From assembly GCA_035939775.1 (NCBI GenBank), contig DASZFO010000268.1:1-57276 (forward strand): a stretch of DNA of 57,276 nt. The letters are read 5' to 3'. Each line of letters opens with the position of its first letter. Position 1 is the stretch's first letter. Below are positions 33,652 through 54,758 of this stretch, piece by piece. The stretch is from Pirellulales bacterium (lineage in GTDB: Bacteria; Planctomycetota; Planctomycetia; Pirellulales; DATAWG01). The translations under genes and the position numbers were made by a program. The notes under the pieces were generated by a model. It was given only the letters and a program-made list of their open reading frames with translations. It did no database searches and was not told the DNA's origin.

Positions 33652-33792
33652 ATGCAAGAGACACCCAAACCTCAACCTGCTCGCGTCGATTCGGAGAAGG
33701 AGCGCCTGCGGCAGCAATTGCTGCGGATGATCGTCAAGAGCGAAGCCCAACGCCGTGCCTCACCTCAGGTCAAGAACCGAATCGGCGAGTAG
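33652..33792 (+). CDS. 46-residue hypothetical protein downstream of the RHH gene
   Basis: It starts at ATG 33652 and ends at TAG 33790-33792. Charged, helix-prone sequence (DSEKERLRQQLLRMIVKSEA). The stop lies at the edge of repeat copy C, suggesting that the insertion may have trimmed a longer gene. No family known; kept because it is co-directional and closely spaced after a DNA-binding protein gene. Confidence 0.45.
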   Translation: MQETPKPQPARVDSEKERLRQQLLRMIVKSEAQRRASPQVKNRIGE

Positions 33793-33910
33793 AAACAGTT
33801 TCAAAACCGCCTCGGAGAAGGGGACAGTCCCCATTTTTCTCCGCGACAATCCCGGCGATGCTGCCCGGCGCAAAATGGGGACAGTCCCCGGCGGTTTTCA
33901 AACTGTTTCT
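33791..33910. repeat. GGGGACAGTCCCC repeat element, copy C
   Basis: Long complementary arms AGAAACAGTTTCAAAACCGC and GCGGTTTTCAAACTGTTTCT (20 of 20 bases with one mismatch) enclose two palindromes GGGGACAGTCCCC (33820-33832 and 33877-33889). It overlaps the 5' end of the protease reading frame. Confidence 0.9.
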
Positions 33911-35068
33911 AGCCCTTCGAGGATCGTCTTTGCCGCGGTTCTGTTCGCTCTGACGATCCCCGCGCGCCTCGCCGCGCAATCTGAACTCTTTCCCGAGCCA
34001 ACTCCTCCGGTTCGCGCGCAGCCAGTGTCCGCCCGCTTCGGGTTCGCTCCGCAGACGCCCCATCCGGCCGTGGTGCGCGTGATTTCGCCCGAGCGAAACG
34101 GCGCCTCGCTCGGCTCCGGCACGCTCGTCGATGTGAGCGAGAAGCACGGGCTGGTGATTACAAATTGGCACGTCGTCAAAGACGCGGCAGGAAACGTGAT
34201 CGTCTCGTTTCCCGACGGTTTTCAAACTCCCGGCTACGTGATCAAGATGGATCGCGACTGGGACCTGGCGGCCGTGGCCATCTGGCGGCCGCGCGTGCAA
34301 GCGGTCCAAATCGCGGCAGCAATCCCGCAGCGCGGCGATCCGCTGGCCATCGCCGGCTACGGCAGCGGCAACTATCGAGCCCAGGCAGGGCGCTGCACGC
34401 AATATCTCTCGCCCGGCGCCGGCATGCCTTACGACATCGTCGAAGTCTCCGCCGCCGCGCGGCACGGCGATTCGGGCGGCCCGATCTTCAACGCCCGCGG
34501 CGAATTGGCCGGCGTGCTGTTCGGCGAAGGGGGCGGGATGACCTCGGGAAGCGCCTCGGTCCGCGTCCGCTGGTTCCTGGCCTCGATCGGCGCTGGCAAG
34601 CCGAATACGCTCCCCACTACCGAATTCGCCAAAGCGCCGGACGCGCCTATGGGGTCAACTACAAGTCTCCCCTCGCCCCTTGCGGGAGCGGGGCCGGGGG
34701 TGAGGGGACAAAACCGTCTCAATTCTTCGGATCCGCCGCCATCCCCCAGCGGCGACCTCCTCGTCGCAGTTCCCGCGCCTCAATCGGTATACCCACCGAC
34801 AACCAGCTATCCAACAACAAACGCGCCCGCGCCAACTTGGCCACCGTCGCAACCGGCGTCGAGCCATCCGTCGGCCGATCCCTTCGCACAACCGCCGCGC
34901 CCAGTCCCGGCCGCGATCTCGTCCGCGGAGCCAAACCCTCAACCCGCGACCGAGCAAGTTAGTTGGGAAGACATCGCCGGCCATACCGCTGGCCAGCAAG
35001 TCAAAACCCTGCTGGCAGTCCTCGGCGTTTTGATGCTGCTTTACCAGGCGACTCGCCGATTGGGATAG
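33875..35068 (+). CDS. Trypsin-like serine protease, C-terminally membrane-anchored
   Basis: 397 residues from ATG 33875; the frame is also open from GTG 33755, but both starts lie in or before repeat copy C, so the native start is uncertain. A signal peptide (RIVFAAVLFALTIPARLAAQ) precedes a trypsin/HtrA-type domain with His99 in LVITNWHVVKDAAG, Asp130 in DRDWDLAAVAIW (Asp128 is the alternative) and Ser200 in RHGDSGGPIFNARGE. A Pro/Ser-rich linker follows, and within it PSPLAGAGPGVRGQ is the translation of another repeat (34666-34708). The C-terminus is one TM helix (VKTLLAVLGVLMLLYQA). No PDZ domain. Function: periplasmic proteolysis, substrate unknown. Confidence 0.85.
   Translation: MGTVPGGFQTVSSPSRIVFAAVLFALTIPARLAAQSELFPEPTPPVRAQPVSARFGFAPQTPHPAVVRVISPERNGASLGSGTLVDVSEKHGLVITNWHVVKDAAGNVIVSFPDGFQTPGYVIKMDRDWDLAAVAIWRPRVQAVQIAAAIPQRGDPLAIAGYGSGNYRAQAGRCTQYLSPGAGMPYDIVEVSAAARHGDSGGPIFNARGELAGVLFGEGGGMTSGSASVRVRWFLASIGAGKPNTLPTTEFAKAPDAPMGSTTSLPSPLAGAGPGVRGQNRLNSSDPPPSPSGDLLVAVPAPQSVYPPTTSYPTTNAPAPTWPPSQPASSHPSADPFAQPPRPVPAAISSAEPNPQPATEQVSWEDIAGHTAGQQVKTLLAVLGVLMLLYQATRRLG
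34666..34708. repeat. CTCGCCC/GGGAGCGGGG-type repeat inside the protease linker
   Basis: TCTCCCCTCGCCCCTTGCGG followed by GAGCGGGGCCGGGGGTGAGG. It resembles the rph and argD-argF copies and is read in frame as part of a flexible linker. Confidence 0.7.
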
Positions 35069-35105: not shown

Positions 35106-36521
35106 TCATTTCTGGATGGTTATTTCGTAACGACGGTTGTAATCGGTGTCCGTTGCTTCCTTATCGCGCTCGCGAGTTGGAGTACCGTGGAGGATTGCTG
35201 TTGTCCCTTCAAGCCGATAACTGAACGACTTGCCCGTCACTGGATCGAAGGGCACGGGAACCGTCAGGTCGGCAAGTCGCGCGGGAAGGTTGCCGTCATG
35301 GTCGGCCGCGAATAGTCGCAGCGCTTCGACGCAGCGCAAGAGAGCGATTCGCTGCTGCCGCCATGTTTGCACCATCCGCGTCACGCTGACGGCAGAGTCC
35401 GCAGTTATCCAATCGAAAAGTGGCCGCTCGTTCGTTGTGGAAGACTTGTCGCTGTCACCTTGCGCGGATTCCGTCTGCCAATATGGGAGCGGCGTTAGCT
35501 TAAGCATGTCATCACGGCGTATCTCGTACTCGCGCTTCGCATCCAGGAGAACCACCTGTACGGCTCCAAACTGCTCGACGATCTTTGATTTCACGCCAGC
35601 GTCGATCAGTCGCTTGCGCGCTGCCGCGACATGAGGTTTACTCTCAGCACGCGCGTTCAACCGACTTGTAAACTCTTTCGTTTTCGTTTCCCAGTCGGGG
35701 CCATCCTTGATTAATTTTGTGAAGCCGTCAATTGCCCTCTGGACTCTCGATTCGTTCATCGGCGCCGTTTCCTCGATCAGTGAAAAAACAGGGGCGAATA
35801 ACATCCTCTCCGACTGTGCTCCCTTTTCCAAGTCGATCAACGGGTTCGGCAGGTTGGTGAGCGCCCAATAGAGATTCGGACAGCCCGGCTGCTGAATCAT
35901 TTCCTCCAAGCGATCGAGCGCGCGATGAGCGACATCGTAACCGTACAAAGCGCCGACGAGCGAAGGATGCTCCCCAAGGTGTCGCGAAATCGCGAACATT
36001 GTCTTGGCGGTGACCATTGCATTGTCGAACCTTCGGCCAGCGATCTCGCATCGGAGTCTCACCGCGAGGGCATCCACAAGCGTATAGCCGATTTCTTGAA
36101 CGTCTGGAACCGCAAGGTCGGCGACGCTCTTCATTCGCAGCAGGATCTGCCAGTCGGGTACGTCGAGCCGGGCCGAGTAGTCGGCGTCCGCCAGACGATC
36201 GCCGCCGTAGTAGGCGTTCAGCTTCTCGATCGGGATATCCTTGAGCGGCATGGTCAGTAATTCCCTGCGCTCTTCAACGGACTGCTTGCCGAAGAGGAAA
36301 CCATTTCGTCCCGATAGGGAGCGCAAGTATCCCTGCACGGGATTACCGGGATTCATCTCCGACATTTCCGGGAGCAGTTGGTATTTGAGGGCCGGGATCG
36401 GGGCCGCCATCGGCTCGACCGTCATCTTCACCACGGTCTCGGCCGGCGCGGATGGCTCCGCGGCAGAGCACCGCAGCGCGAGGACAAGGGATAGAGCGAG
36501 AAACGTGATGATTCGAAGCAT
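35106..36521 (-). CDS. Exported protein with PIPALKYxLLP motif (ECF module 1, third gene)
   Basis: 471 residues from an ATG preceded by GGGAG. Signal peptide RIITFLALSLVLALRCSAAE. The motif AAPIPALKYQLLP lies at about residue 41, then PNLYWALTNLPNPLIDLEKG near 245. The C-terminal ~110 residues carry LRCVEALRLFAADHDGNLPA and VPFDPVTGKSFSYRLEG, resembling the pseudopilin-like tail of planctomycetal secreted proteins. The protein at 52760-54229 shares all these blocks, so they are paralogues. It belongs with the two genes upstream (36841-37760), separated by a 319-base palindrome-rich gap. Function unknown; exported, helix-rich middle. Confidence 0.85.
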   Translation of the reverse strand: MLRIITFLALSLVLALRCSAAEPSAPAETVVKMTVEPMAAPIPALKYQLLPEMSEMNPGNPVQGYLRSLSGRNGFLFGKQSVEERRELLTMPLKDIPIEKLNAYYGGDRLADADYSARLDVPDWQILLRMKSVADLAVPDVQEIGYTLVDALAVRLRCEIAGRRFDNAMVTAKTMFAISRHLGEHPSLVGALYGYDVAHRALDRLEEMIQQPGCPNLYWALTNLPNPLIDLEKGAQSERMLFAPVFSLIEETAPMNESRVQRAIDGFTKLIKDGPDWETKTKEFTSRLNARAESKPHVAAARKRLIDAGVKSKIVEQFGAVQVVLLDAKREYEIRRDDMLKLTPLPYWQTESAQGDSDKSSTTNERPLFDWITADSAVSVTRMVQTWRQQRIALLRCVEALRLFAADHDGNLPARLADLTVPVPFDPVTGKSFSYRLEGTTAILHGTPTRERDKEATDTDYNRRYEITIQK

Positions 36522-36562
36522 GAAACTTCTCCCAAACGGGTCTGACGAAATGCACCTCCAAC

Positions 36563-36776
36563 GGAACCCGGCAGGGTTCCAAGCCATTAGCCGGGGGTCG
36601 AGGCCGTTAGGCCGACACCCCCGGTTGCGAGAAAACCAAACGACCTTCGCATCCCAGAGGGATGCCAGCGCGCTGCGACCCCTGCCAGGGTCGGTGATTC
36701 GTGCGCGTCACTGACCCGGCGGTATCGGCCGGACGGCCTCGACCGCCGGCTAATGGCTGGCATCCTTCCAGGATGC
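36563..36776. repeat. Mosaic of five short palindromes
   Basis: GGAACCCGGCAGGGTTCC (36563-36580), CCGGGGGTCG...CGACACCCCCGG (36591-36624), GCATCCCAGAGGGATGC (36649-36665), GACCCCTGCCAGGGTC (36677-36692) and GCATCCTTCCAGGATGC (36760-36776). They fill the otherwise empty gap 36522-36840 within ECF module 1 and resemble a BIME-like repeat cluster. Confidence 0.75.
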
Positions 36777-39108: not shown

Positions 39109-39354
39109 AGTCCGATCCCTTGCTGCATGGATTCCCGTGAACCAGCGTCGGCATCCACAGATTAGGCGTTCGCCAGGGGATGCGCAAAAACGCCATGGTG
39201 AAGATTTTTGCAAGCTATGGATCGTAGTAGTGCCGCGTTTGGATTTTGTGAGCGATTTACGAGAATTGATCGAGGAAATCGGTTTCCGAACCTATGATAT
39301 GCTCGGTTTTTGGCTTATTGTTGAATTCCGATAGAGTCATTTCAAGTGCATCGC

Positions 39355-42300
39355 ATGTCACGACCGGCCCGGCGTCAAAATCGAACCGACTTTTCGATGC
39401 GCTGCGGCGTGGCGGCGAGCGCGATCGTCGTCGCGGCGCTGGCGGCTTGGGCCGACGAGCCAACTGCACGGAAGACGTTGACGGATGCCGATCGATCGCA
39501 ATTGGCGGAGGCCGCCCGATTGAATGACGAGGTGATGGGCCTCATTCGCCAGGGCAAAGCTCGCGAGGCGCTCGAGCCGGCCCGCCGGGCGCTGGAAGTC
39601 CGCAGCAAGATCGAAGGGGAGCAACATGCCGGTTTTGCCCTCGGCCTGAGCACGCTCGCGCAGGTGCGGTATGAGTTGGGCGAATACGCGACCGCGAAAC
39701 CACTTTTCGAGCAAGCCCTGGAAATCCGCCGCAAGACGGTCGGCGAAAGGCACGCGGTCTATCTCGGCAACTTGAATGACCTGGCTGCGACGGACGAAGC
39801 CTTGGGGGATTTTGCCGCAGCGGAAAAGCTGTATCAGCGGGCTCTCGATCTGCGGCGAGACGTGCTCGGCCGAAAGCATCCCGACTACGCCACGAGCCTC
39901 AACAATCTTGGACTGCTGTATGTCGAGACGGGCAGCTACGACAAAGCCGCTCCGCTGCTGCGCGAAGCGCTCGAGCTGACCAAAATAGCTCTCGGCGAAA
40001 AACACCCCGACTACGCCGGCAGCTTGAACAGCCTGGGCGGCGTTTACTTGGAGACCGGCGACTACGCCCGAGCGGAGCCGCTCTTCCGCCAAGCCGTCGA
40101 ATTGTACAAGCAAGTTCTCGGCGAAAAACACCCGCAGTATGCCGAGAGCCTCGGCAATCTCGCCGGACTCTATCGGGCCACGGGTGATTGCGCCGCGGCC
40201 GAGCCGCTCTACCGGCAATCCGCGGAGATCCTGAAACAAACGCTTGGCGAGAATCATCCGCTGTGCGCGACTGCTCTACACAATCTGGCAGGGCTCTATC
40301 AACAGAAAGGCGAGTTCGCCAAGGCCGCGCCGATTTATCAACAAGCGCTAGATATTACGGCGCGCACCGTGGGCGAAAATCACCCCGATTACGCCAACAC
40401 GCTGGACGCCCTGGCGGGCGTGACCATGTCGCTCGGCGAGCGAACCAAAGCCGAGGCGATGTTTCGGCGTGCGCTGGAAATCCGCCGCAAAGCGCTCGGC
40501 GACTCGCACGCCGACTACGCTCTGAGCTTGAACAATCTGGCCGACGTCTATCGCGAATCGGGCCAATTCGCCGCCGCCGAGCCGCTCTTGAAACAAGCCA
40601 TCGAGATTTATCGCCGGGCCGTCGGCCCGAAGCACCCACTCTATGTCCTCAGCTTGAGCAATCTCGCGGCGCTCTATCGACAGCAAGGCCAGTTTGCCAA
40701 GGCGGCGCCGTTGGCTCGCGAGGCCTTGCAGACTTCACGGCAACTGCTCGACCTGACTGCGGCCGTGCAATCCGAACGGCAGCAGTTGAAGATGATCGAG
40801 CAGGTTCGTTATCGGCTCGACAATTATCTCGCGATCGCGACGGCGGTGCAAAGTCCGCCCGACGAGTCGTATGCCGAAGTGTTGGCTTGGAAGGGGTCCG
40901 TCTCGGCGCGGCAGCAGCGAATCCGTGCCATGCAGAACGATCTGGATCACAACCGCTCGCCGGAAGTCGCGAAACTGTATTCCGAATTGGACGACGCCAG
41001 CCGGGCGTTCGCAAATCTCTCGATGGCCGTTCCGTCGCCGGAAGACCGCGACGAATATCTGCGAAAGCTGGCCGAATCGAGTTCCCGCGTCGAGCGTTTG
41101 GAGCAATCGCTGGCGGCGGCCAGCCGAGAATTTCGTGGGCAATTGGTCGAGCGCCGTCAATCGGCCGACGATGTGCGCCGGGCGCTCCCGTCCGGCGCTG
41201 CGCTGGTGGACCTGTTGGAATATTGGTCGCTCGCGCCGCCGGGTGATCGCCGCCGTGAATCGTGGCAGCGCTGTCTGGTTGCCTTCGTGGTCCGTCCGGG
41301 ATTGCCGGTTGCGCGGATCGAACTGGGATCGATGGCGCCCATTACGTCGGCGATTGAATCCTGGCGAAAAAGCGTTGGCGCCCCGGCGCGCGATCGGTTG
41401 CCCGATCCGGCCACCGAGCTGCGGCGCCTGGTGTGGGCAAAGTTGGAGCCGGCGATCGGCGACGCCAAGCTTGTGTTGCTTTCGCCCGACGGCGCAACGG
41501 CCCGATTCCCTTGGCCGGCCTTGCCGGGGCGGCAACCCGGAAGCTATCTGCTGGAAGAGACGGCGATCGTGATCCTTCCGATTCCGCGGCTATTGCCCGA
41601 GTTGGTCTCGAATTCGGACCTATCTGATTCCGCAAAGCGGAATGCGCTTGAGCCGCCGTCACTGTTGCTTGTCGGCGACGTGGATTTCGACGCCGCGCCG
41701 GTTCGAGCGCCGGCCGAGGCAATCGTTCAAATGGCCCCGCGTGGCAGTCGCGGGGCGGAGCTTCCGCGCTGGGCCCCATTGCCGGGGACGCGCACGGAGA
41801 TCGTCGCCATTGCCGATTCATTCTCGGAGCGGTTTCCGCAAGGCGACCTAACCAAGCTCCGCAACGATCAAGCGACAAAGCGCGCGGTTGAAGCACAGTT
41901 GACCAAGCATCGCTACGTCCATTTCGCGACGCACGGCTTCTTCGCCCCGGCTCAGCCTCGTCCCGCCGGACTCGATCCCGCACGGCGCACCGAGTCGGAA
42001 CGCTTCGATCCGTTTGGTAGCGAAGGAGTCTCCGGCTTCCATCCGGGCCTGCTCTCCGGGCTAGTGCTGGCCGGCGCGAATCAGCCGATCTCGGAGGGAA
42101 ACGACGACGGTATCTTGACCGCGCTGGAAGTCTCGCAGCTCGACTTGAGCCATGTCGAGTTGGCCGCGCTGTCGGCCTGCGAAACCGGTTTGGGAACTTC
42201 GGCCGGTGGCGAAGGCTTGCTGGGCCTGGAGCGGGCTTTTCAAGTTTCAGGCGCGAAAGCGGTTGTCGCCACGCTGTGGACGATCAACGACGACGCCAGC

Positions 42301-42504
42301 CGCGCGCTGATGATCGACTTCTACGACAATCTCTGGCACAAGAAGATGTCAAAGGTGGAATCGCTGCGGCAAGCCCAGTTGAAAATGCTGCGCGAAGGAA
42401 TCAGCCGCGGGCTGAAATTCGCCGACGACCGCCCGCCTGACAAGGATCGCCGCTTGCCGCCGTATTACTGGGGCGCGTTCACGCTGAGCGGCGATTGGCG
42501 GTAA
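39355..42504 (+). CDS. TPR-CHAT protein
   Basis: 1049 residues. After a signal-like segment (CGVAASAIVVAALAAWADE), about ten 42-residue TPR units run from residue ~50 to ~470 (recurring LNNLGLLYVETGSYDKAAPL-type blocks). A helical linker leads to a C-terminal CHAT (caspase-like) domain: LVLLSPDGATARFPWPALPG, His860 in VHFATHGFF and Cys942 in ALSACETGLGTSAGGEGLLG, followed by FQVSGAKAVVATLWTINDDA. The His/Cys dyad suggests a protease. CHAT proteases act in several defence and cell-death systems; here there is no CRISPR partner, but an ECF sigma gene follows after 78 bases. Substrate unknown. Confidence 0.92.
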   Translation: MSRPARRQNRTDFSMRCGVAASAIVVAALAAWADEPTARKTLTDADRSQLAEAARLNDEVMGLIRQGKAREALEPARRALEVRSKIEGEQHAGFALGLSTLAQVRYELGEYATAKPLFEQALEIRRKTVGERHAVYLGNLNDLAATDEALGDFAAAEKLYQRALDLRRDVLGRKHPDYATSLNNLGLLYVETGSYDKAAPLLREALELTKIALGEKHPDYAGSLNSLGGVYLETGDYARAEPLFRQAVELYKQVLGEKHPQYAESLGNLAGLYRATGDCAAAEPLYRQSAEILKQTLGENHPLCATALHNLAGLYQQKGEFAKAAPIYQQALDITARTVGENHPDYANTLDALAGVTMSLGERTKAEAMFRRALEIRRKALGDSHADYALSLNNLADVYRESGQFAAAEPLLKQAIEIYRRAVGPKHPLYVLSLSNLAALYRQQGQFAKAAPLAREALQTSRQLLDLTAAVQSERQQLKMIEQVRYRLDNYLAIATAVQSPPDESYAEVLAWKGSVSARQQRIRAMQNDLDHNRSPEVAKLYSELDDASRAFANLSMAVPSPEDRDEYLRKLAESSSRVERLEQSLAAASREFRGQLVERRQSADDVRRALPSGAALVDLLEYWSLAPPGDRRRESWQRCLVAFVVRPGLPVARIELGSMAPITSAIESWRKSVGAPARDRLPDPATELRRLVWAKLEPAIGDAKLVLLSPDGATARFPWPALPGRQPGSYLLEETAIVILPIPRLLPELVSNSDLSDSAKRNALEPPSLLLVGDVDFDAAPVRAPAEAIVQMAPRGSRGAELPRWAPLPGTRTEIVAIADSFSERFPQGDLTKLRNDQATKRAVEAQLTKHRYVHFATHGFFAPAQPRPAGLDPARRTESERFDPFGSEGVSGFHPGLLSGLVLAGANQPISEGNDDGILTALEVSQLDLSHVELAALSACETGLGTSAGGEGLLGLERAFQVSGAKAVVATLWTINDDASRALMIDFYDNLWHKKMSKVESLRQAQLKMLREGISRGLKFADDRPPDKDRRLPPYYWGAFTLSGDWR

Positions 42505-42582: not shown

Positions 42583-43155
42583 GTGCTCGAACCGCTGACG
42601 GACGAACAACTCCTCTCCGCCTACCGGGCCGGCGACGACGAGGCCGCCACCGCCCTGTTCGAGCGCTATTACCAAAGGCTCTTGAGCTTGATCCGGCGGC
42701 AGGCGGGCTGGCGGCTCAAGCAGGCCGAGGGTTCGATGGACGTGGCCCAAAGCGTGCTGCGGAGCTTCTTCGGCCAGCTTCGCAAGCAACAGGTTGCGGT
42801 CGGTGACGACGCGAGCCTCTGGCCGCTGTTGGTGACGATTACGCTCAACAAGGTCCGCAACCGCGGCAAGTTCTGGCAGCGTGCCCGCCGCGATCCGAGT
42901 CGCGCGCAGCCGCTCGATTCCGAGCGCGATCCGCTGGAATCCGGGCCTTCGCCGGACGACGTGGTTGCCCTGGGCGACCTCGTCGAGCAACTCCTGGAGC
43001 CTTTTTCCGATCGCCGCCGGCGGATCATCGAGTTGATCCTGGCCGGGCAGCCGGTGCGCGAAATCGCCGCCGAGGTCGGAGCCACCGAGCGAACGGTCTT
43101 CAACACCCGCCTGGCCGCCGCCCGGATTCTCGAGCAGGTCTTGGGGGAGGAATGA
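42583..43155 (+). CDS. ECF-type RNA polymerase sigma factor
   Basis: 190 residues. Region 2: EATALFERYYQRLLSLIRRQ is absent as such but DEAATALFERYYQRLLSLIR leads the fold, then MDVAQSVLRSFF; region 4: LLEPFSDRRRRIIELILAGQ with REIAAEVGATERTVFNTRLA as the HTH. It resembles the planctomycetal ECF sigma factors with a GSMDVAQSV motif, which are often associated with protein kinases, though none is nearby. Directly downstream of the TPR-CHAT gene, so possibly cotranscribed. Confidence 0.88.
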   Translation: MLEPLTDEQLLSAYRAGDDEAATALFERYYQRLLSLIRRQAGWRLKQAEGSMDVAQSVLRSFFGQLRKQQVAVGDDASLWPLLVTITLNKVRNRGKFWQRARRDPSRAQPLDSERDPLESGPSPDDVVALGDLVEQLLEPFSDRRRRIIELILAGQPVREIAAEVGATERTVFNTRLAAARILEQVLGEE

Positions 43156-43170
43156 GTAAGAGGCCCGTAC

Positions 43171-43300
43171 AAAACGTGGCACTGCTTGACGGCTGCCGCC
43201 ACTCGGTGCGGAATTCGCGCCAAGACATGGCAGCCGTCAAGCAGTGGCACGCGGGGACGATCTTCTCAGACAAGGGTTATGTTCGGGCTTCTCAGGAAAA
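43171..43300 (+). repeat. ~130 bp hairpin repeat, copy 1 (forward)
   Basis: Stem arms GTGGCACTGCTTGACGGCTG and CAGCCGTCAAGCAGTGGCAC (43176-43250), then a shared tail through ACGATCTTC and GGTTATGTTCGGGCTTCTCA. The reverse complement of 45518-45649 matches it over nearly the full length. It immediately precedes the alpha-galactosidase start. Confidence 0.9.
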
Positions 43301-43305
43301 ATCAT

Positions 43306-45324
43306 ATGTTGAACGTGACCAAATCCTCATTGAACTCATTTCATCTCGGCCGGCTAATCACTTTGTTGGCTCCGCTGCTGGTACTGCTGGCGACCGCGAC
43401 TGCGGCAGCCGATATCGTCCGCCTGGAAGACCTGGGATTCAATCATCTTCATCAAGATTGGGGTAAACCCGGCAAGGGCAAGAGCGTCGATGGGCATCCG
43501 CTCACCATCGCCGGCAAGGTTTTTGAGCACGGATTGGGAAGCCATGCGTCGTCAAGCTGGTGGATCGACTTGGCGGGCAAGGCCGATCGGTTCACAGCAT
43601 CCGTCGGAGTCGATGACGAAGTGAAGGATCGGCCAGAAGCGAGCAACTTCCCGATCGAATTCAGAGTCATCGCCGATGGTAAGGCCCTCTATCATGCCGG
43701 CAAGATGAAGCTCGGCGATCGGGCTAAAGAGATCGACCTCGATCTGCACGGCATCCACACACTCGTGCTGTTGATCGAGCCGATGGGACCGAGCATCAAT
43801 TTCGGTCACGGCGACTGGACCAACGCGATCATCACTTACACGGGCCGTCGGCCGACGACGATCGAAGCGCCGCGAGAAACCGCCGAAATCCTGACTCCCA
43901 AGCCTTCGGCCGCGCCGCGGATCAACGGCGCCACCGTGCTGGGCGTGCGCCCCGGTCATCCGGTTCTATACACCATCGCCGCCACCGGCGAGCGGCCGAT
44001 GACCTTCGCCGCCGAGGGCTTGCCGGCCGGACTTTCCGTGAACTCGAAGACGGGGCGGATCACCGGCGCCGCGCGCGAGCGCGGCGAATCCGTCGTAACC
44101 CTGAACGCGACCAACTCGCACGGCAGCGCCGAACGCAAGCTGCGGATCAAGGTCGGCGACGCCGTCGCATTGACGCCGCCGATGGGCTGGAACAGTTGGA
44201 ACTGCTTTGCCACAAGCGTGAGCGACAAGAAAGTCCGCGCCGCGGCCGACGCGATGGTCAGCTCGGGACTGGTGGATCACGGCTGGACCTACATCAACAT
44301 CGACGATTGCTGGGAGGTCTCGAACAACCGTCCCCCCGAAGCCCGCCGCAACGCCGACGGCCGCATCAAGACCAACGATAAATTCCCTGGCATGAAACCT
44401 CTGGCCGACTACATCCATGCCAAGGGGTTGCGGGCCGGCATCTATTCTTCGCCCGGCCCGACGACCTGCGGCAACTTCACCGCCAGCTACAATCATGAAG
44501 AGCAGGATGCCGAACAATACGCCCGCTGGGGATTCGACTATTTGAAATACGATTGGTGCTCCTACGATCAAATCGCGGGGAGGGAGACGAAGGTCCGCCC
44601 GTACCCGCAAAACGTGCTCGAGCGCCCGTATGCGATGATGCGCGACGCGCTGGCGAAGCAAGACCGCGACATCGTAGTCAGCCTTTGCCAATACGGGATG
44701 GGCGACGTTTGGCGATGGGGTGCATCGGTCGGCGGCAATTGTTGGCGAGTGACCGGAGATATTTCCGACAACTGGGCGAGCATGGCGGGGATCGGCTTCG
44801 GTCAAACGCGCACCGCGGCGTTCGCCGGGCCCGGGCATTGGAACGACCCCGATATGCTCGTGGTCGGCTCTGTCGGCTGGGGCAATAATCTGCACCCGAC
44901 CCATCTCACGCCGAACGAACAATACACGCACATCTCGCTCTGGTGCCTCCAAGCCGCTCCGCTCTTGATCGGCTGCGACATGACGCAGCTCGACGAATTC
45001 ACTCTCGGCCTCTTGACCAACGACGAAGTGCTCGCCATCGATCAAGACCCGCTCGGCAAACAAGCGGTTCGCATCCTCACCAACGACGACGGCCTCGAAA
45101 TCTGGGCCAAGTCGCTGGAAGACGGCGCCAAGGCCGTCGGGCTATTCAACCGCGGCGAAATGCCCAGCCGCGTCACCGCCCGTTGGTCCGACCTCGGCCT
45201 CTCAGGCAACCAGCCCGTCCGCGATCTCTGGCGCCAGAAGAATCTAGGAGAATTCGACGGTCAATTCAGCGCCGATGTCGCCCGTCACGGCGTCGTGTTG
45301 GTTCGCGTCGGGGCGGCGAAGTGA
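43306..45324 (+). CDS. GH27 alpha-galactosidase with NPCBM domain
   Basis: 672 residues. Signal peptide (LITLLAPLLVLLATATAAA) followed by an NPCBM domain (VFEHGLGSHASSSWWIDLAG, residues ~55-180), a putative Ig-like domain (GHPVLYTIAATGERPMTFAA, ~200-285) and the GH27 catalytic barrel from TPPMGWNSWNCF (~290). The nucleophile Asp416 lies in YLKYDWCSYDQ and the acid/base Asp516 in GHWNDPDMLVVG. The C-terminal domain is the usual beta-sandwich. It would release alpha-linked galactose from galactans or galactomannans in the periplasm or outside. Flanked by inverted copies of a ~130 bp repeat. MFGLLRKNHM at 43279 is an alternative start. Confidence 0.93.
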   Translation: MLNVTKSSLNSFHLGRLITLLAPLLVLLATATAAADIVRLEDLGFNHLHQDWGKPGKGKSVDGHPLTIAGKVFEHGLGSHASSSWWIDLAGKADRFTASVGVDDEVKDRPEASNFPIEFRVIADGKALYHAGKMKLGDRAKEIDLDLHGIHTLVLLIEPMGPSINFGHGDWTNAIITYTGRRPTTIEAPRETAEILTPKPSAAPRINGATVLGVRPGHPVLYTIAATGERPMTFAAEGLPAGLSVNSKTGRITGAARERGESVVTLNATNSHGSAERKLRIKVGDAVALTPPMGWNSWNCFATSVSDKKVRAAADAMVSSGLVDHGWTYINIDDCWEVSNNRPPEARRNADGRIKTNDKFPGMKPLADYIHAKGLRAGIYSSPGPTTCGNFTASYNHEEQDAEQYARWGFDYLKYDWCSYDQIAGRETKVRPYPQNVLERPYAMMRDALAKQDRDIVVSLCQYGMGDVWRWGASVGGNCWRVTGDISDNWASMAGIGFGQTRTAAFAGPGHWNDPDMLVVGSVGWGNNLHPTHLTPNEQYTHISLWCLQAAPLLIGCDMTQLDEFTLGLLTNDEVLAIDQDPLGKQAVRILTNDDGLEIWAKSLEDGAKAVGLFNRGEMPSRVTARWSDLGLSGNQPVRDLWRQKNLGEFDGQFSADVARHGVVLVRVGAAK

Positions 45325-45699
45325 TCGGCTTGCTCTGCGGAGAAAATACTCGGATTAATCCAAGGAATACTTGCTCGATCACAAACAAATCTGTTGCCAT
45401 CGCGGAATCTCGTGTTCTAATGGCGGCAGTTTCTCGAACAGGTCGTCCGAGGCGATATGTGCCGGTTCTGCTATTTCGGCCGCGCGTCTAATCCGGAGGC
45501 CATTTCCCCACCCCAGTTTTTTCTCCCTAAAAGCCCTAACATAACCGTTGACTGGAAAGATCGTCGCCGGGTGCCACTGCTTGACGGCTGCCATGTCTTG
45601 GGGGAATTCCGCACCGGATGGTGGCAGCCGTCAAGCAGTGCCACGTTTTGCGAGTGCTCCTGAGTTTCACCCCGCATCGGTATCCGAGGAGGAACGCTA
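45325..45699. other. Gap holding repeat copy 2, no gene seen
   Basis: After the galactosidase stop there is AT-richer sequence to about 45420, then repeat copy 2. AGGAGGAACGCT just before 45700 is a strong ribosome site for the PEP-CTERM gene. Confidence 0.6.
45518..45649 (-). repeat. ~130 bp hairpin repeat, copy 2 (inverted)
   Basis: Inverse orientation of copy 1; arms GTGCCACTGCTTGACGGCTG and CAGCCGTCAAGCAGTGCCAC. With copy 1 it brackets the GH27 gene in head-to-head inverted orientation (about 2.2 kb apart). Confidence 0.9.
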
Positions 45700-46671: not shown

Positions 46672-47060
46672 ATGTCGAGGAGGAATAGGGGGGCGCGACT
46701 CGAATTGCAAATCAACCGCGTCCTCGTATTCTTTCCACTCGCGGCGAGACGCCGAGCCGCGTCACCGCGCGGTGATCCGACCTGGGCCTCTCGGACAACC
46801 AGCCCGTCGGCGATCTCTGGCGGTGGCAGAATCTGGTAGAATTCGACAGCCGATTCAGCACGGATGCCGCTCACCGCGGAGTCGTGCTGCTCCGCATCGG
46901 GCCGGGAGAATTAGCGGCTTGGTTAACGGATACACACAAAGGCGGCTTGAGTCGTTGTTGACCGATTCGACTCGCGTCCCTTTTGTTTCGTCATGCTCCG
47001 TTTTGTATCGACGCCGGGCTGCGCGGCCGGAGACGCCGCAGAACTACCTGCCAAAAACAA
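46672..47060. other. Gap holding the GH27 relic, upstream of the STAND gene
   Basis: Apart from the relic, the sequence 46915-47060 contains TTGACC (46958-46963) 17-18 bases before a T-rich stretch, a weak candidate promoter for the STAND gene. No ribosome site is evident before ATG 47061. Confidence 0.45.
46731..46914 (+). pseudogene. C-terminal relic of a second GH27 alpha-galactosidase
   Basis: Reading from 46731 gives LSTRGETPSRVTAR then TGA (46773-46775), then SDLGLSDNQPVGDLWRWQ and NLVEFDSRFSTDAAHRGVVL, closely matching the end of the intact enzyme (LFNRGEMPSRVTARW, SDLGLSGNQPVRDLWRQ, NLGEFDGQFSADVARHGVVL). The TGA replaces a tryptophan codon. Only about 60 codons remain. Confidence 0.85.
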
Positions 47061-50000
47061 ATGGCCATTAACTGGAACAGTCTACGATCCTGGAATGGTT
47101 CTCAAGCGCATAGCTTTGAGGAGATTTGCTGCCAATTGGCCGCGGATGAATCCGTGCCGGAAGGTTCTCGATTCTTTCGAAAGGGCGCGCCAGACGCTGG
47201 TGTCGAGTGCTTTTGGCGATTGCCCAATGCCGACGAATGGGCTTGGCAGGCGAAGTTTTTTTTGACATCGCCGGGGCAGAGCCAGTGGCACCAAGTCCAC
47301 GCATCCGTCAAGGCGGCCCTTCACAAGCATCCCCACTTAACGAAGTACACCGTTTGCATGCCGGTCGACTTACCAGACGATCGAAGCGGCGGACGGAAGA
47401 GCGCCCACGAGAAATGGGCAGATTCGGTGGCAGGCTGGGAGAAGCTTGCTAGTACAAATGGGATGTCGGTATCGTTCGAGTTTTGGGGGCAAAGCGAAAT
47501 TGGGGGACGTTTGAGCAACGAGAAGCACCGCGGGCGGCATTGGTTTTGGTTCAACGAGGAGCAGTTGAGCAATTCGTGGTTTGCCAGCCGGGTCAACGAA
47601 GCAGTCGAGAATGCGCGCGACCGATACTCACCCGAACTCAATGTGGATCTACCGATTCGCTCTAGCTTTGATGCACTTGGCCGCACGGCCGAATTCTTCT
47701 CGCGGCTCACCGAACTTTATACGAAAGCACGAATCGCGTTCAACAGGCTACGCCCAACGAGCGAGCCAGAGCCACTCAAACAGGCTTATGATCGCATCGT
47801 GACGATGGCACCGCAATTGTTCGCATTGATCGAACCCTGGGTCTTGCTTGAAGCGAGTTATCTCGAATGGACAACGACAAGACCGATTCCGTGGAACGAA
47901 ATCACATTGCGATCGCAAGAGCTATCGGAATTGGTAGATGGCTGTTTATCCGCCGTGCGTGACCTGAAGGGTAGCCGCGGCACGAGCGACAAGCCACAAA
48001 TTCGCAATTCGACTGACGATCTGGATTCGCGATACTATTATTTGCGCGAGTTCGAACACACGCTTTATGAAATCACGGGGTTTTCCAGTAGCAAAGAATG
48101 CCTACTCTCGAATTGTCCTGCCATGTTGCTCGTAGGCGCGGCGGGTCAGGGCAAGACGCACCTCCTATGTGACGTGGCGAAGCGCGAGACGGAGGACTCT
48201 CGACCACGACTCATCTTTCACGGAGAGCATTTTCACGACGACGAACCTTGGTCCCAGATGATTCGCTTGGTTGGCTTGAATTGCTCTCGAGACGAACTGA
48301 TTGGCGCTATCGAGGCGGCCGCGCAGGCAAACAATTGCCGTGTGCTGCTCCTAATCGACGCACTGAACGAAGGCGACGGAAACCGTCTTTGGTGGAAATT
48401 CCTGCCCGGAATTCTGACGACCCTAGCGCGATCGCAGTGGCTCGGCATTTGCGTCAGTATCCGCAATACCTACGAGCCGCATATTATTCCTCCAACGCTT
48501 GATGAGACACGAATTGTTCGAGTCGAGCATTACGGCTTCGGTGAGTTCGCTTACCGAGCTGCCGCAAAGTTCTTTGCCCATTTTGGCCTTGAGCCGTCAG
48601 CGCCTGTCTTGTTTCCTGAGTTCGACAACCCATTGTTCCTCAAGCTATTCTGCCAGAGTATTCACAACGCTGGTTTAACGAGGGTTCCCTCTGGGTTACG
48701 TGGGGTTACGAAAATCTTTCGTTTCTTCGTGGAGTCGATCGACAAGAAGCTCGCGCGCGCTGATAGCCTTAATTACGACGATCGCGATTGCCTCGTCGCA
48801 AAGGCTGTCGATAATCTGTCGGACGAAATGGCCATACGGAAGAGCGATCGCCTGCCGCTCGACAAAGCCAAAGCTATCGTCAACGCACTGCTGCCGCGAG
48901 ATGAACATCAGCGATCTCTGTTTCACTCCCTCGAATCGGAAGGCGTCCTCACCGTTGTTCCGGAATCACGAAGTGACAGTGACGAATGGTCGGAATCGGT
49001 GCGTTTCACCTATCAACGGTTTTCAGACCATCTGATCACCCAGCGATTGCTGAAAAGGTATCTTGACAAACGCGAACCAAAGAAATCGTTTTCGAGGCGC
49101 CGCGCCTTGGGCCAACTCGTCAAAGACGAGCGAACGTGCTGGATGAATTCGGGGATTCTCGAATCGCTTGCGATTCAAATCCCTGAAATAACAAAGAAGG
49201 AATTGCCGAATCTCGCACCTCATCTCGCCGGTTACTTGCCGATGCGCGAGGCGTTTGTCGCGAGCATTGTTTGGCGTGACGCGGAAAGCTTTAGCGTCGC
49301 GTCCGACCGGTACATTAACAAACATGTACTTGCATTTCGCGGCACGTTTGCCAGCTTTTGGGATGCGATGATTTCCCTTGCTACCGCTCCGAATCATCCA
49401 ATGAACGCCGACCGTCTGCACCAGATATTGATCCGAGGTGAGCTAGCCACGAGAGATGCGTGGTGGTCTATTTTCCTGCACGATCAGTACGGCAGTCAGC
49501 GATCTGTTGATCGCCTCGTAGAATGGGCGCTCGACGAGAGCGACAAATCGACGTTTGACGACGAGGTAGTCCGTCTTTCAGCGATCGCGCTTGCTTGGTT
49601 TTTCACGACGGCAAATCGCTTTCTTCGTGACCGAGCCACCAAGGCAATGGTCAGGCTATGCGAGGAACGTATCCAAGTTCTTCGACACGTCCTCAAGACG
49701 TTCAAGAGTGTAGACGATCCGTACGTCAGCGAGCGCCTTCATGCGGTTGCCTACGGCTGTGCGATGCGGACGAACGATGTTGCGGCATTGGCGGGTCTGG
49801 CCCAGGACGTCTATCGTGCTGTGTTCGAATCGGGAATGCCCCCGCCGCACGCTCTGCTGCGGGATTACGCTCGTGGAGTGATTGAAGTAGCAATTCATCG
49901 CGGTGCAATTGCGGAGCTAGATGTCGCGAAAACTATGCCTCCCTATCGCAGCGAATGGCCGTTGATCGATATTCCTGAACCGATCGAACTCGAAACGTGG

Positions 50001-51641
50001 GGACAGTCGCGAGTTGATATGCCCGACAGAGAGTGGGCGAGGGTGCATTTATATCACTCGGTTATGGATGATGATTTCTCGCGCTACGTCATCGGTGGTC
50101 TGGATGAGTGGTCGTCCTGTCGAAGTGACGAACCGAAGACTCCCACGCACAAGGAGTTATACGAGGAATTCGTCGACTCGCTTACAAACCGCCAGCGGCG
50201 CGCCTTCGACGCGTACGCAACTCTACGAAGTAATATCGACCTTTATCGGCGGTTGGGACCGGACGCGGCGGCCGAGCGATTTGGACATCGCTTTACCGAC
50301 GGGGAGTTGAATGCCGCGCTGACAACAAGTCGGCAAGCGGTCCTCCGATCGCTTGGGACGAACTTTCAGAAGCGAGACTTATTCAACGGGTCCGTGGAGG
50401 CCTTTATGGCGGAGCCGCACACGTACTCAGAAGAAAACAGATTCGACGGCCAACTGGCGCGTCGGTGGCTGATTAAGCGGATCATCGACATGGGGTGGAC
50501 GGTTGAGCGGTTTGGCGACTTCGATCGAAATGTCAACCGGTATAGTCGGCATGGACGCGAACCGAATAAGCCGGAACGGATCGGAAAGAAGTATCAATGG
50601 ATTGCATATTATGAATTGCTTGCGAGGCTATCCGATAATTTCAGAATGCGCGATGATGAATGGTCGCCGCGCGGGGCGCAAGGTCAGGAACCTTGCACAC
50701 ATTCATTTCGCCGCGATATTGACCCTTCGAATCTCGTTCGGAGCACGCAATGCGAAGAGTGGCGTGCGCACACTAATTCCTGGTGGTTTCCAGCAAGATT
50801 CGAATCCTGGGATGTGCCGCCGGACGAGGTGCGGTGGCTGAAGAACCACGATGTGCCACGCGTCGAGGATGCGATTGTCGTTACGCATCCTGGCAATGGT
50901 GCTCGGTGGTGTACCCTACATGGCTACTATCGATGGGCGCAACGTACACCCACCGGCGAGGAGCAATTTGAAGCAAAGCGGCGCGAAGTATGGTGCATGC
51001 TCAAGTCGTACTTCATAAGAAGATCGGAGTCCCAAAAGCTCCTCCGGTGGGCTCTCAAACAAAGCTGGATGGGCCGATGGATGCCCGAGTCACACGAGGC
51101 GTACGGAGTTCTGCTTGGTGAATTCTTTTGGTCTCCGGCATTCAGGGAGATGGACTGCAGCTACTATGGACGGAACGGATGGTCGCGCCAGGCGCGGATG
51201 AATGGGCGCGAGCTTCCGGCCGAGATTCTTATCGCGAACGATGGCTACGCGTGGGAGTCTGGAGGATTTGATTGCTCCGTTGACGGGACGATTTTCATTG
51301 AGCTGCCTTGTCGATTCTTAGCCGATGGCATGCAACTCTCCTGGCGCGGGGTCGAGGGAGAATGGGTCAATCAAAAAAATGAGTTGTGCGCGGTTGACCC
51401 ATCGGTCCGATCTAAGGGGCCACGCGTTTTGCTGGTCCGCCACGACGCACTTTCGGATTTTCTGACATCAAATGGCCTTACTTTGTTCTGGACGCTGCTC
51501 GGTGAGAAACGAACAATCGGTGGTTCGATGTCGGGCGCGGACTACAACGGATACCTAGAAATAAACGGAGCGTACGTCCTAAAGGACGGCGCAGTTTCCG
51601 GGCAAAAGCATGTACGGTACGTGCCTCCGAGGGCCCGATAG
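47061..51641 (+). CDS. STAND NTPase with N-terminal PD-(D/E)XK-like nuclease (Avs-like antiphage candidate)
   Basis: 1526 residues. Residues ~1-165 look like an Mrr/REase-type nuclease: Asp45 in GAPDAGVECFW and Gln63-x-Lys65 in EWAWQAKFFL give the D-(E/Q)xK pattern. Residues ~350-700 form the NTPase: Walker A in LLVGAAGQGKTHLL (Gly359 to Thr366), Walker B/STAND signature in VLLLIDALNEGDG (Asp433, Glu437), and a winged-helix-type block, VRFTYQRFSDHLITQRLL. The rest (~700-1526) is mostly helical, with Trp-rich stretches, and presumably senses a ligand. The three-part plan resembles antiviral Avs proteins, which detect phage proteins and activate a nuclease. By hand count of sample lines, G+C is about 50-55% against ~60-67% nearby, so transfer is likely. 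I cannot assign an Avs subtype. Confidence 0.8.
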   Translation: MAINWNSLRSWNGSQAHSFEEICCQLAADESVPEGSRFFRKGAPDAGVECFWRLPNADEWAWQAKFFLTSPGQSQWHQVHASVKAALHKHPHLTKYTVCMPVDLPDDRSGGRKSAHEKWADSVAGWEKLASTNGMSVSFEFWGQSEIGGRLSNEKHRGRHWFWFNEEQLSNSWFASRVNEAVENARDRYSPELNVDLPIRSSFDALGRTAEFFSRLTELYTKARIAFNRLRPTSEPEPLKQAYDRIVTMAPQLFALIEPWVLLEASYLEWTTTRPIPWNEITLRSQELSELVDGCLSAVRDLKGSRGTSDKPQIRNSTDDLDSRYYYLREFEHTLYEITGFSSSKECLLSNCPAMLLVGAAGQGKTHLLCDVAKRETEDSRPRLIFHGEHFHDDEPWSQMIRLVGLNCSRDELIGAIEAAAQANNCRVLLLIDALNEGDGNRLWWKFLPGILTTLARSQWLGICVSIRNTYEPHIIPPTLDETRIVRVEHYGFGEFAYRAAAKFFAHFGLEPSAPVLFPEFDNPLFLKLFCQSIHNAGLTRVPSGLRGVTKIFRFFVESIDKKLARADSLNYDDRDCLVAKAVDNLSDEMAIRKSDRLPLDKAKAIVNALLPRDEHQRSLFHSLESEGVLTVVPESRSDSDEWSESVRFTYQRFSDHLITQRLLKRYLDKREPKKSFSRRRALGQLVKDERTCWMNSGILESLAIQIPEITKKELPNLAPHLAGYLPMREAFVASIVWRDAESFSVASDRYINKHVLAFRGTFASFWDAMISLATAPNHPMNADRLHQILIRGELATRDAWWSIFLHDQYGSQRSVDRLVEWALDESDKSTFDDEVVRLSAIALAWFFTTANRFLRDRATKAMVRLCEERIQVLRHVLKTFKSVDDPYVSERLHAVAYGCAMRTNDVAALAGLAQDVYRAVFESGMPPPHALLRDYARGVIEVAIHRGAIAELDVAKTMPPYRSEWPLIDIPEPIELETWGQSRVDMPDREWARVHLYHSVMDDDFSRYVIGGLDEWSSCRSDEPKTPTHKELYEEFVDSLTNRQRRAFDAYATLRSNIDLYRRLGPDAAAERFGHRFTDGELNAALTTSRQAVLRSLGTNFQKRDLFNGSVEAFMAEPHTYSEENRFDGQLARRWLIKRIIDMGWTVERFGDFDRNVNRYSRHGREPNKPERIGKKYQWIAYYELLARLSDNFRMRDDEWSPRGAQGQEPCTHSFRRDIDPSNLVRSTQCEEWRAHTNSWWFPARFESWDVPPDEVRWLKNHDVPRVEDAIVVTHPGNGARWCTLHGYYRWAQRTPTGEEQFEAKRREVWCMLKSYFIRRSESQKLLRWALKQSWMGRWMPESHEAYGVLLGEFFWSPAFREMDCSYYGRNGWSRQARMNGRELPAEILIANDGYAWESGGFDCSVDGTIFIELPCRFLADGMQLSWRGVEGEWVNQKNELCAVDPSVRSKGPRVLLVRHDALSDFLTSNGLTLFWTLLGEKRTIGGSMSGADYNGYLEINGAYVLKDGAVSGQKHVRYVPPRAR

Positions 51642-52759: not shown

Positions 52760-54229
52760 TCAATTCTTCCGGACGGTCACTTGGTAACGCTGGCCGTTGC
52801 CGGCCGACGGGGCGCCGGGAATCTGGCTGACGAGCGTTGCCGTGTCGCCCGTGCAATGGTAATCGAACGGCTGGCCCGTTCCGGGGTCGTCGGGAATTGG
52901 AACTTCGGTGACGTCCGCAAGCTTGTTGGGCAATTGGCCATCATGCGCTGCGCAGTGCATTCGCAAGGCCTCGATCACGCGCAAAGCGGTTAATCGGCGC
53001 TCAATCGCAATTTGGCGCGATATGACGTTGTTCAAACTCGGAAGGAACAGGCGCGCCGGCACGTGACCCTCGGTGATCGCCACATCATGGAGCCGCTTGA
53101 TCGATTCGGCGAGTAAGGGGCGGGCCTGCGGGTAGGGTAAGTATGAGGCACGATACCAATCGTCGCGATCGTCCTGATACGTGCCCATCATACATAGGAG
53201 AAGCACTTGAGCCGGTGGCATCATCTCGACTTTGTCGGCCGCCAGGCCTCGAGTGCGGGCGACGTACTTGCGGGCCAGCGAAAGATCGGGCGACTTTGAG
53301 GCAGGATCGCCGGGAGCACAATCCTTGGGGAACCAGTCGGGAAGTTTTTCCGGGCTCCCTTCCGCGGGCTCGAGGGCGACTTCGCGCATCTCTGTTCGAG
53401 TGCGCTGCAAGAGACTGTCCCATTGCTCCGCCGTACGTTCTCGATCCAGATCGCTTAACTCAGGGAATTGTTTCTCAAATGTTTGATACTCGAACCCGAA
53501 GCCTGGCCGTAAGTCAATCAGGGGACGAGGCAGAGCCGTCAGCGCCCAATAAAGGTTCGGAGCATCCGGTCGCTCGATGAATTCGGTGGCGGCGCCGACG
53601 AACTCAGAGGCGATGGCGTAGCCGACGAGGCTGTTGATCAGGGTGGGTCCCTCCGCCACATGTTGGCTGAAAGCAAAGCCCGTTTCCAAGTGGTGGGCAG
53701 CCGCGCTGAAATCCCCTTGTGCCAGCGCGACGCGCGCTTGCAGGATCAGCATGGGAGTGTAATTGCGCATCCACTGCATGTCGGGCAACAAGAGGCCGAT
53801 GGGATTGGGCTCGTCGAGTGTGTAATTCCATTCGGCGGTTCGCCGTCGAGCGCCGACTTCGAGCTGTCGGAGAAGGTAGTGATGGTCCTGGAGAAACTTG
53901 CGAGCCTCCTCCGTCGGGATCTTGTCCAACGGCAGCGCGTTCCATTGTTTGGGCGTTTCGGTGAAGTATTTTCGCGACGCATCGCTCTGCTCGTGAGTTA
54001 GTCGCAGATAAATCGGCACGGCGTTGCCGTCCTTCAACTCCCAACTGCCGGGCAGCAATCGATATTTCAACGCTGGGATCGGCGCGGCCTGTGGCGAGAT
54101 GGTTAATGACTGGTCGATGGCCCAGGGCGAGGCGGATTTGTCCGCCGCCGGCGGTTTGTCCTCGGCACGAAGGACCGATGTCAGCGCGAGGGTGAAGACG
54201 AGTACTGAGTATTGGCGCAAGCGGGCCAT
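52760..54229 (-). CDS. Exported protein with PIPALKYxLLP motif (ECF module 2, third gene)
   Basis: 489 residues from an ATG eight bases after AGGAGG. Signal peptide VLVFTLALTSVLRAE. AAPIPALKYRLLP lies near residue 51 and APNLYWALTALPRPLIDLRP around 245; the C-terminal block (LRVIEALRMHCAAHDGQLPN, IPDDPGTGQPFDYHCTG) matches the paralogue at 35106-36521. It lies 46 bases after the small membrane protein gene, so module 2 is compact and probably intact. Function unknown. Confidence 0.87.
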   Translation of the reverse strand: MARLRQYSVLVFTLALTSVLRAEDKPPAADKSASPWAIDQSLTISPQAAPIPALKYRLLPGSWELKDGNAVPIYLRLTHEQSDASRKYFTETPKQWNALPLDKIPTEEARKFLQDHHYLLRQLEVGARRRTAEWNYTLDEPNPIGLLLPDMQWMRNYTPMLILQARVALAQGDFSAAAHHLETGFAFSQHVAEGPTLINSLVGYAIASEFVGAATEFIERPDAPNLYWALTALPRPLIDLRPGFGFEYQTFEKQFPELSDLDRERTAEQWDSLLQRTRTEMREVALEPAEGSPEKLPDWFPKDCAPGDPASKSPDLSLARKYVARTRGLAADKVEMMPPAQVLLLCMMGTYQDDRDDWYRASYLPYPQARPLLAESIKRLHDVAITEGHVPARLFLPSLNNVISRQIAIERRLTALRVIEALRMHCAAHDGQLPNKLADVTEVPIPDDPGTGQPFDYHCTGDTATLVSQIPGAPSAGNGQRYQVTVRKN

Positions 54230-54275
54230 GGTTTCAGCCTCCTGAAATGAGCGGAAGAGGTTGGCTAGACGCGGA

Positions 54276-54758
54276 TTACTGATTGAACAGGGCTTCATAT
54301 TGGGAAGCCTTGAGGATCGCAGGCTCGGGCGGAGCGGGCCCGGGCGGCGCCGACCCGGTGGATTCTCGTGAAGCAAGCCAACGGCTCGGATCTTGCTCCA
54401 TTCGGCGGCGCAGGTTGAAATAGCCATCCGGCGATGGTCTGAACGAGGTAACTGCGGCAACGGCAAAACTGGTTATTGGAGGGAGGCCGGCTGGCCGCGT
54501 GCGTTCCTGAAGCCTGCTGACAAGGAACTGGCACTCGGCACATTCCTTGAGCCCCCAGATGCCCGAAGCCGCCGTCAAGACCGCCAGCAAACCGCACAGT
54601 GCCGGCCAAAGCAGCCGGCCGCGTCCTTCCTTGCCGACCGCGAGCCCGGCGGCAAAAAGCATCGCGTCGCGATTCAAGCCCGCTGCGTCCGGGCGCCAGC
54701 CTGACAACAGGCGCTCGACACCGCTCAGGTCGTCTTGGTCGGGGGAGTGTGTATCCAT
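54276..54758 (-). CDS. Small single-TM protein with AGLNRDAMLFAAG motif (ECF module 2)
   Basis: 160 residues, overlapping the sigma gene by 34 bases. An acidic N-terminus (DTHSPDQDDLSGVERLLSGW) precedes the conserved RPDAAGLNRDAMLFAAGLAV, then a TM helix (LLWPALCGLLAVLTAASGIW), a CxxC (KECAEC) just after it, and a Pro-rich C-terminal tail. Same plan as the protein at 36841-37296. Candidate membrane regulator of the upstream ECF sigma factor. Confidence 0.77.
   Translation of the reverse strand: MDTHSPDQDDLSGVERLLSGWRPDAAGLNRDAMLFAAGLAVGKEGRGRLLWPALCGLLAVLTAASGIWGLKECAECQFLVSRLQERTRPAGLPPITSFAVAAVTSFRPSPDGYFNLRRRMEQDPSRWLASRESTGSAPPGPAPPEPAILKASQYEALFNQ

Follow-up and report, generated by a model that had tools for sequence, protein, structure and literature searches.

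An intact full-length Avs2 (AVAST type 2) protein with an Mrr-type nuclease domain encoded by a Pirellulales bacterium

Avs2 is an established type of immune sensor in bacteria, believed to detect a phage DNA-packaging protein and then to cut DNA. The large terminase subunit is recognised by Avs1-3, and the portal by Avs4 (PMC12724215). In Escherichia coli Avs2, recognition by the sensor leads to oligomerisation of the ATPase and then to activation of the N-terminal effector (PMC12724215). The nuclease effectors of Avs1-4 cleave both phage and host DNA (PMC12931631). A Klebsiella Avs2 is reported to bind, in addition, the phage protein Ksap1, which has no known function (PMC12724215; PMC12931631). 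Within AVAST, Avs effectors of the protease type that are paired with a nuclease have been described as well (PMC12799240). Here we compared these systems with a locus in a 57,276-nucleotide stretch of Pirellulales DNA (the window), for which an Avs-type antiviral sensor had been proposed.

The avs2 gene was an uninterrupted reading frame on the forward strand, running from an ATG at 47061 to a stop at 51641. It encodes 1526 amino acids, laid out as in the original prediction: the N-terminus is nuclease-like, a STAND NTPase follows and the C-terminal region is long. Starting instead from an in-frame TTG at 46983 would lengthen the protein by 26 residues. The ATG was preferred because the alignments of relatives begin at residues 1-5 of the ATG version. 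The NCBI curated equivalog model for Avs2, NF041813, matched the protein with 1398 bits, well over the family cut-off of 1000 bits, and aligned residues 183-1514 with profile positions 2-1317 of 1317. Six PADLOC Avs2 models also matched, all strongly. The best of these, PDLC02164, reached 1661 bits and extended along the full length of the protein, N-terminus included (residues 1-1520), so that the whole architecture is already represented in PADLOC. The sole significant sequence match in the PDB was to the solved Avs2 9o4e (E 6e-212, residues 168-1516). None of the PADLOC and NCBIfam models for other Avs types matched. The protein resembles these Avs2 references in its STAND NTPase with Walker A and B motifs, its complete C-terminal sensor and its single-gene layout, and it also bears an N-terminal effector domain. 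A scan of genome contigs returned 104 relatives. The 80 that were kept had ~26-44% identity and spanned many phyla of bacteria and archaea, and most of them matched over nearly the whole length. Judged by its sequence, the window protein is an ordinary, intact, full-length Avs2 from a poorly studied lineage.

Residues 1-165 (47061-47555, forward strand) are predicted to form an Mrr-type PD-(D/E)XK nuclease effector with its catalytic residues E20, D45, E49, Q63 and K65 intact. Seven positions, F19, E20, Q25, D45, G47, E49 and Q63, were invariant among proteins sharing this first domain, and K65 was kept in 98% of the 50 proteins with the same N-terminus. Asp45 and Gln63-x-Lys65 had been picked out beforehand, and the equally invariant E20 and E49 can be added to them. 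The resulting arrangement, E...D-x-G-x-E...Q-x-K, is the pattern of Mrr-type PD-(D/E)XK nucleases. An AlphaFold2 model of residues 1-330 had a pLDDT of 88.6, with values above 90 over most of residues 1-165. In the model, the domain had the alpha-beta-beta-beta-alpha-beta core expected of PD-(D/E)XK enzymes, so that both the core and the E...D...QxK active site of the Mrr type were found. The top structural match was portal-bound Avs4 (8dgf; VIA Z 13.7 over 167 residues, rmsd 5.0), followed in VIA by LlaBIII (Z 9.6), MspJI (Z 9.2) and FokI (Z 8.8). Together with the model core, the Avs4 match bears out the nuclease fold on which the original prediction had been staked. Foldseek gave modest E-values, the best (0.003) again to Avs4, and a sequence-profile search aligned the N-terminus weakly with Avs4 residues 5-94 (E 0.006). 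A single-sequence search of the PDB with residues 1-180 returned no match, so the assignment needed profile and fold searches. Pfam placed the N-terminus in no named family; its Mrr_cat model missed the window protein and matched one of 41 aligned relatives (E 0.0038). The likeness to Avs4 lies in this nuclease. In contrast, the STAND and sensor regions belong to Avs2, the only Avs type whose models matched, and not to Avs4, which recognises the portal.

The nuclease is followed by a linker (residues ~166-347; 47556-48101, forward strand). In sequence alignments, it begins with a conserved RYxPELNVxLxI-like stretch, which gives way to a variable helical region. The STAND NTPase occupies residues ~348-689 (48102-49127, forward strand). 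Its Walker A motif, GAAGQGKT (359-366), and its Walker B-like motif, LLLIDALNE (429-437), correspond to those recognised in the original prediction, and the key residues K365 and D433 were kept in all 73 relatives compared. Pfam matches to NACHT and AAA families in this region were weak and all below threshold.

The first domain differs among Avs2 proteins. An Escherichia relative shared the linker from residue 168 onward and not the nuclease; the N-terminal ~160 residues of this relative and of 9o4e had no sequence similarity to the window protein. The Escherichia N-terminus was also unmatched in Pfam. In three other relatives (L064, L068 and L070), the N-terminus matched trypsin-like peptidases, weakly in L064 and L070. 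Most relatives found carried an Avs4-like Mrr nuclease on an Avs2 STAND-sensor body, as the window protein does. The different N-terminus of the E. coli-type proteins indicates that the effector is a swappable module. The window protein is thus another display of effector swapping in Avs proteins, among an Mrr nuclease, a trypsin-like domain and an Escherichia-type N-terminus. Since the modularity of AVAST is already known, the window protein contributes a distant test case and not a new principle.

The sensor comprised residues 690-1526 (49128-51638, forward strand), with a helical-repeat part leading into a beta-rich end. In an alignment of 51 sequences, it was ~27-52% identical to 50 Avs2 relatives and had 38 invariant columns, among them those of a KKYQWIAY stretch at residue 1176. 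Some stretches varied, such as residues 1051-1100 with 13% mean identity. Curated Avs2 models covered the sensor up to residues 1514-1520, and 9o4e aligned with it as far as residue 1516. By these alignments, the ~800 residues at the C-terminus form the usual Avs2 sensor, which is conserved over its entire length in relatives from many phyla. The earlier remark that it held no known motif reflects the lack of a database at hand and not novelty.

The model of the sensor had a pLDDT of 90 and a pTM of 0.90. Its best fold match in the PDB was terminase-bound Avs3 in its C-terminal part (8dgc, with the terminase of phage PhiV-1; Foldseek E 5e-6). For this pair, VIA gave a Z of 14.3 and an rmsd of 6.2 over 447 residues. 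Such a Z is by itself weak for a helical-repeat protein, but the second-ranked entry stood well apart at Z 8.2. The match spanned model residues 144-826 and thus continued through the non-helical end. Because 9o4e was not among the Foldseek results, the fold likeness of the sensor rests on Avs3, the closest solved sensor fold in the Foldseek library, and the likeness to 9o4e is one of sequence. Avs3 differs in being only ~14% identical to the window sensor and in being longer, at ~2000 residues in 8dgc. The resemblance to terminase-bound Avs3 makes the large terminase subunit the favoured, though unproven, ligand.

We consider it very probable, at about 0.88, that the locus is a single-gene AVAST type 2 defence in which terminase sensing drives ATP-dependent oligomerisation, an Mrr-type nuclease is activated and the cell dies. 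By analogy with the studied relatives, the ligand of the sensor (residues ~690-1526) would be a conserved protein that the phage produces in the infected cell, and the large terminase subunit is the most probable one. The STAND domain would then bind ATP and drive oligomerisation, by which the Mrr-type nucleases at the N-termini would be brought together and switched on. The active nuclease may cut both phage and host DNA, so that the infected cell would die before phage release. The effector step is not directly transferable from the Escherichia Avs2 relative, given its different N-terminus.

Alternatively, the protein might be an Avs2 homologue with the same nuclease output whose sensor has come to recognise a different phage protein, for instance the portal, a Ksap1-like protein or one specific to planctomycete phages. 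A Klebsiella Avs2-family protein is reported to bind both terminase and Ksap1 (PMC12724215; PMC12931631), which suggests that terminase is perhaps not the sole ligand, and the ~27-52% identity to relatives and the variable stretches of the sensor would leave room for such a shift. However, large parts of the sensor show strong conservation between phyla, as the 38 invariant positions attest, and the best structural match was terminase-bound Avs3. We therefore regard this alternative as unlikely, if worth keeping in mind, and give slightly less credence still to the plain reading that this divergent Avs2 has a sensor for some phage protein that is not terminase. If that were true, Avs2 sensors with broader or shifted ligands would exist in further lineages.

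It is also conceivable that this is a former Avs2 gene, no longer active in defence or put to another use by the host. A relative from the same order has an avs2 split by a stop, and a pseudogene relic (46740-46921, forward strand) lies in the upstream flank. The relic derives from the alpha-galactosidase gene at 43186-45324: it is a degenerate duplicate of the 3' end, with 79% DNA identity over 182 bp and an in-frame stop, and forms flanking debris outside the system. In the avs2 gene itself, however, the reading frame is intact and all checked catalytic residues are kept, which makes such a loss improbable. Almost no weight is left for the new sensor class raised in the original prediction, which was otherwise right in proposing an Avs-type sensor, here narrowed to Avs2: sub-threshold Pfam scores are all that favours a nuclease-STAND protein with an unrelated sensor, and it is ruled out by the Avs2 models that reach the end of the sensor and by 9o4e, which aligns across it.

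Returning to avs2 as a probable terminase-sensing defence gene, we examined its distribution and surroundings. Among 297 genomes of the same order, three, the source genome included, had a protein above the family cut-off, and three more had near-full-length matches below it. The source genome held no second copy of the Avs2 family or of its nuclease domain. The G+C content of avs2 was 54.6% (60% at third positions), compared with 60-67% (69-84%) in six neighbouring genes. The patchy occurrence and the low G+C support horizontal acquisition of avs2. In relatives lacking avs2, the flanking genes were present solely as diverged homologues (~30-50% identity). Rfam and tRNA scans of the window found nothing, and hence no tRNA-type integration site was seen. 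A PADLOC scan of ten neighbouring proteins gave weak or generic-domain matches and no clear defence gene or island. The solitary position of the gene, its low G+C (at first sampled by hand) and the nearby repeat and pseudogene debris were thus all as originally described.

Several other features of the window were noted. The alpha-galactosidase gene, of which another homologue occurs on contig C192, is flanked by two inverted, 88% identical copies of a partly palindromic element of ~130 bp (43170-43301, reverse strand; 45520-45650, forward strand). Other contigs of the same genome carry five more (86-95%), which gives the element a REP/MITE-like appearance. A TPR-CHAT protein of 1052 residues (39346-42504) precedes an ECF-type sigma factor gene (42583-43155), and this adjoining of a CHAT peptidase and a sigma factor is perhaps of interest. 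Two reverse-strand genes, 35106-36587 and 52760-54466, are paralogues with 35% identity, the latter unmatched in Pfam. Just upstream of each, on the same strand, is an ECF sigma factor-like reading frame; the paralogous gene has four copies in the genome. Finally, a 437-residue reading frame (33755-35068) matched the C-terminal part of PADLOC RT-Protease_XI weakly (E 5e-9), and the match is probably just to the protease domain.
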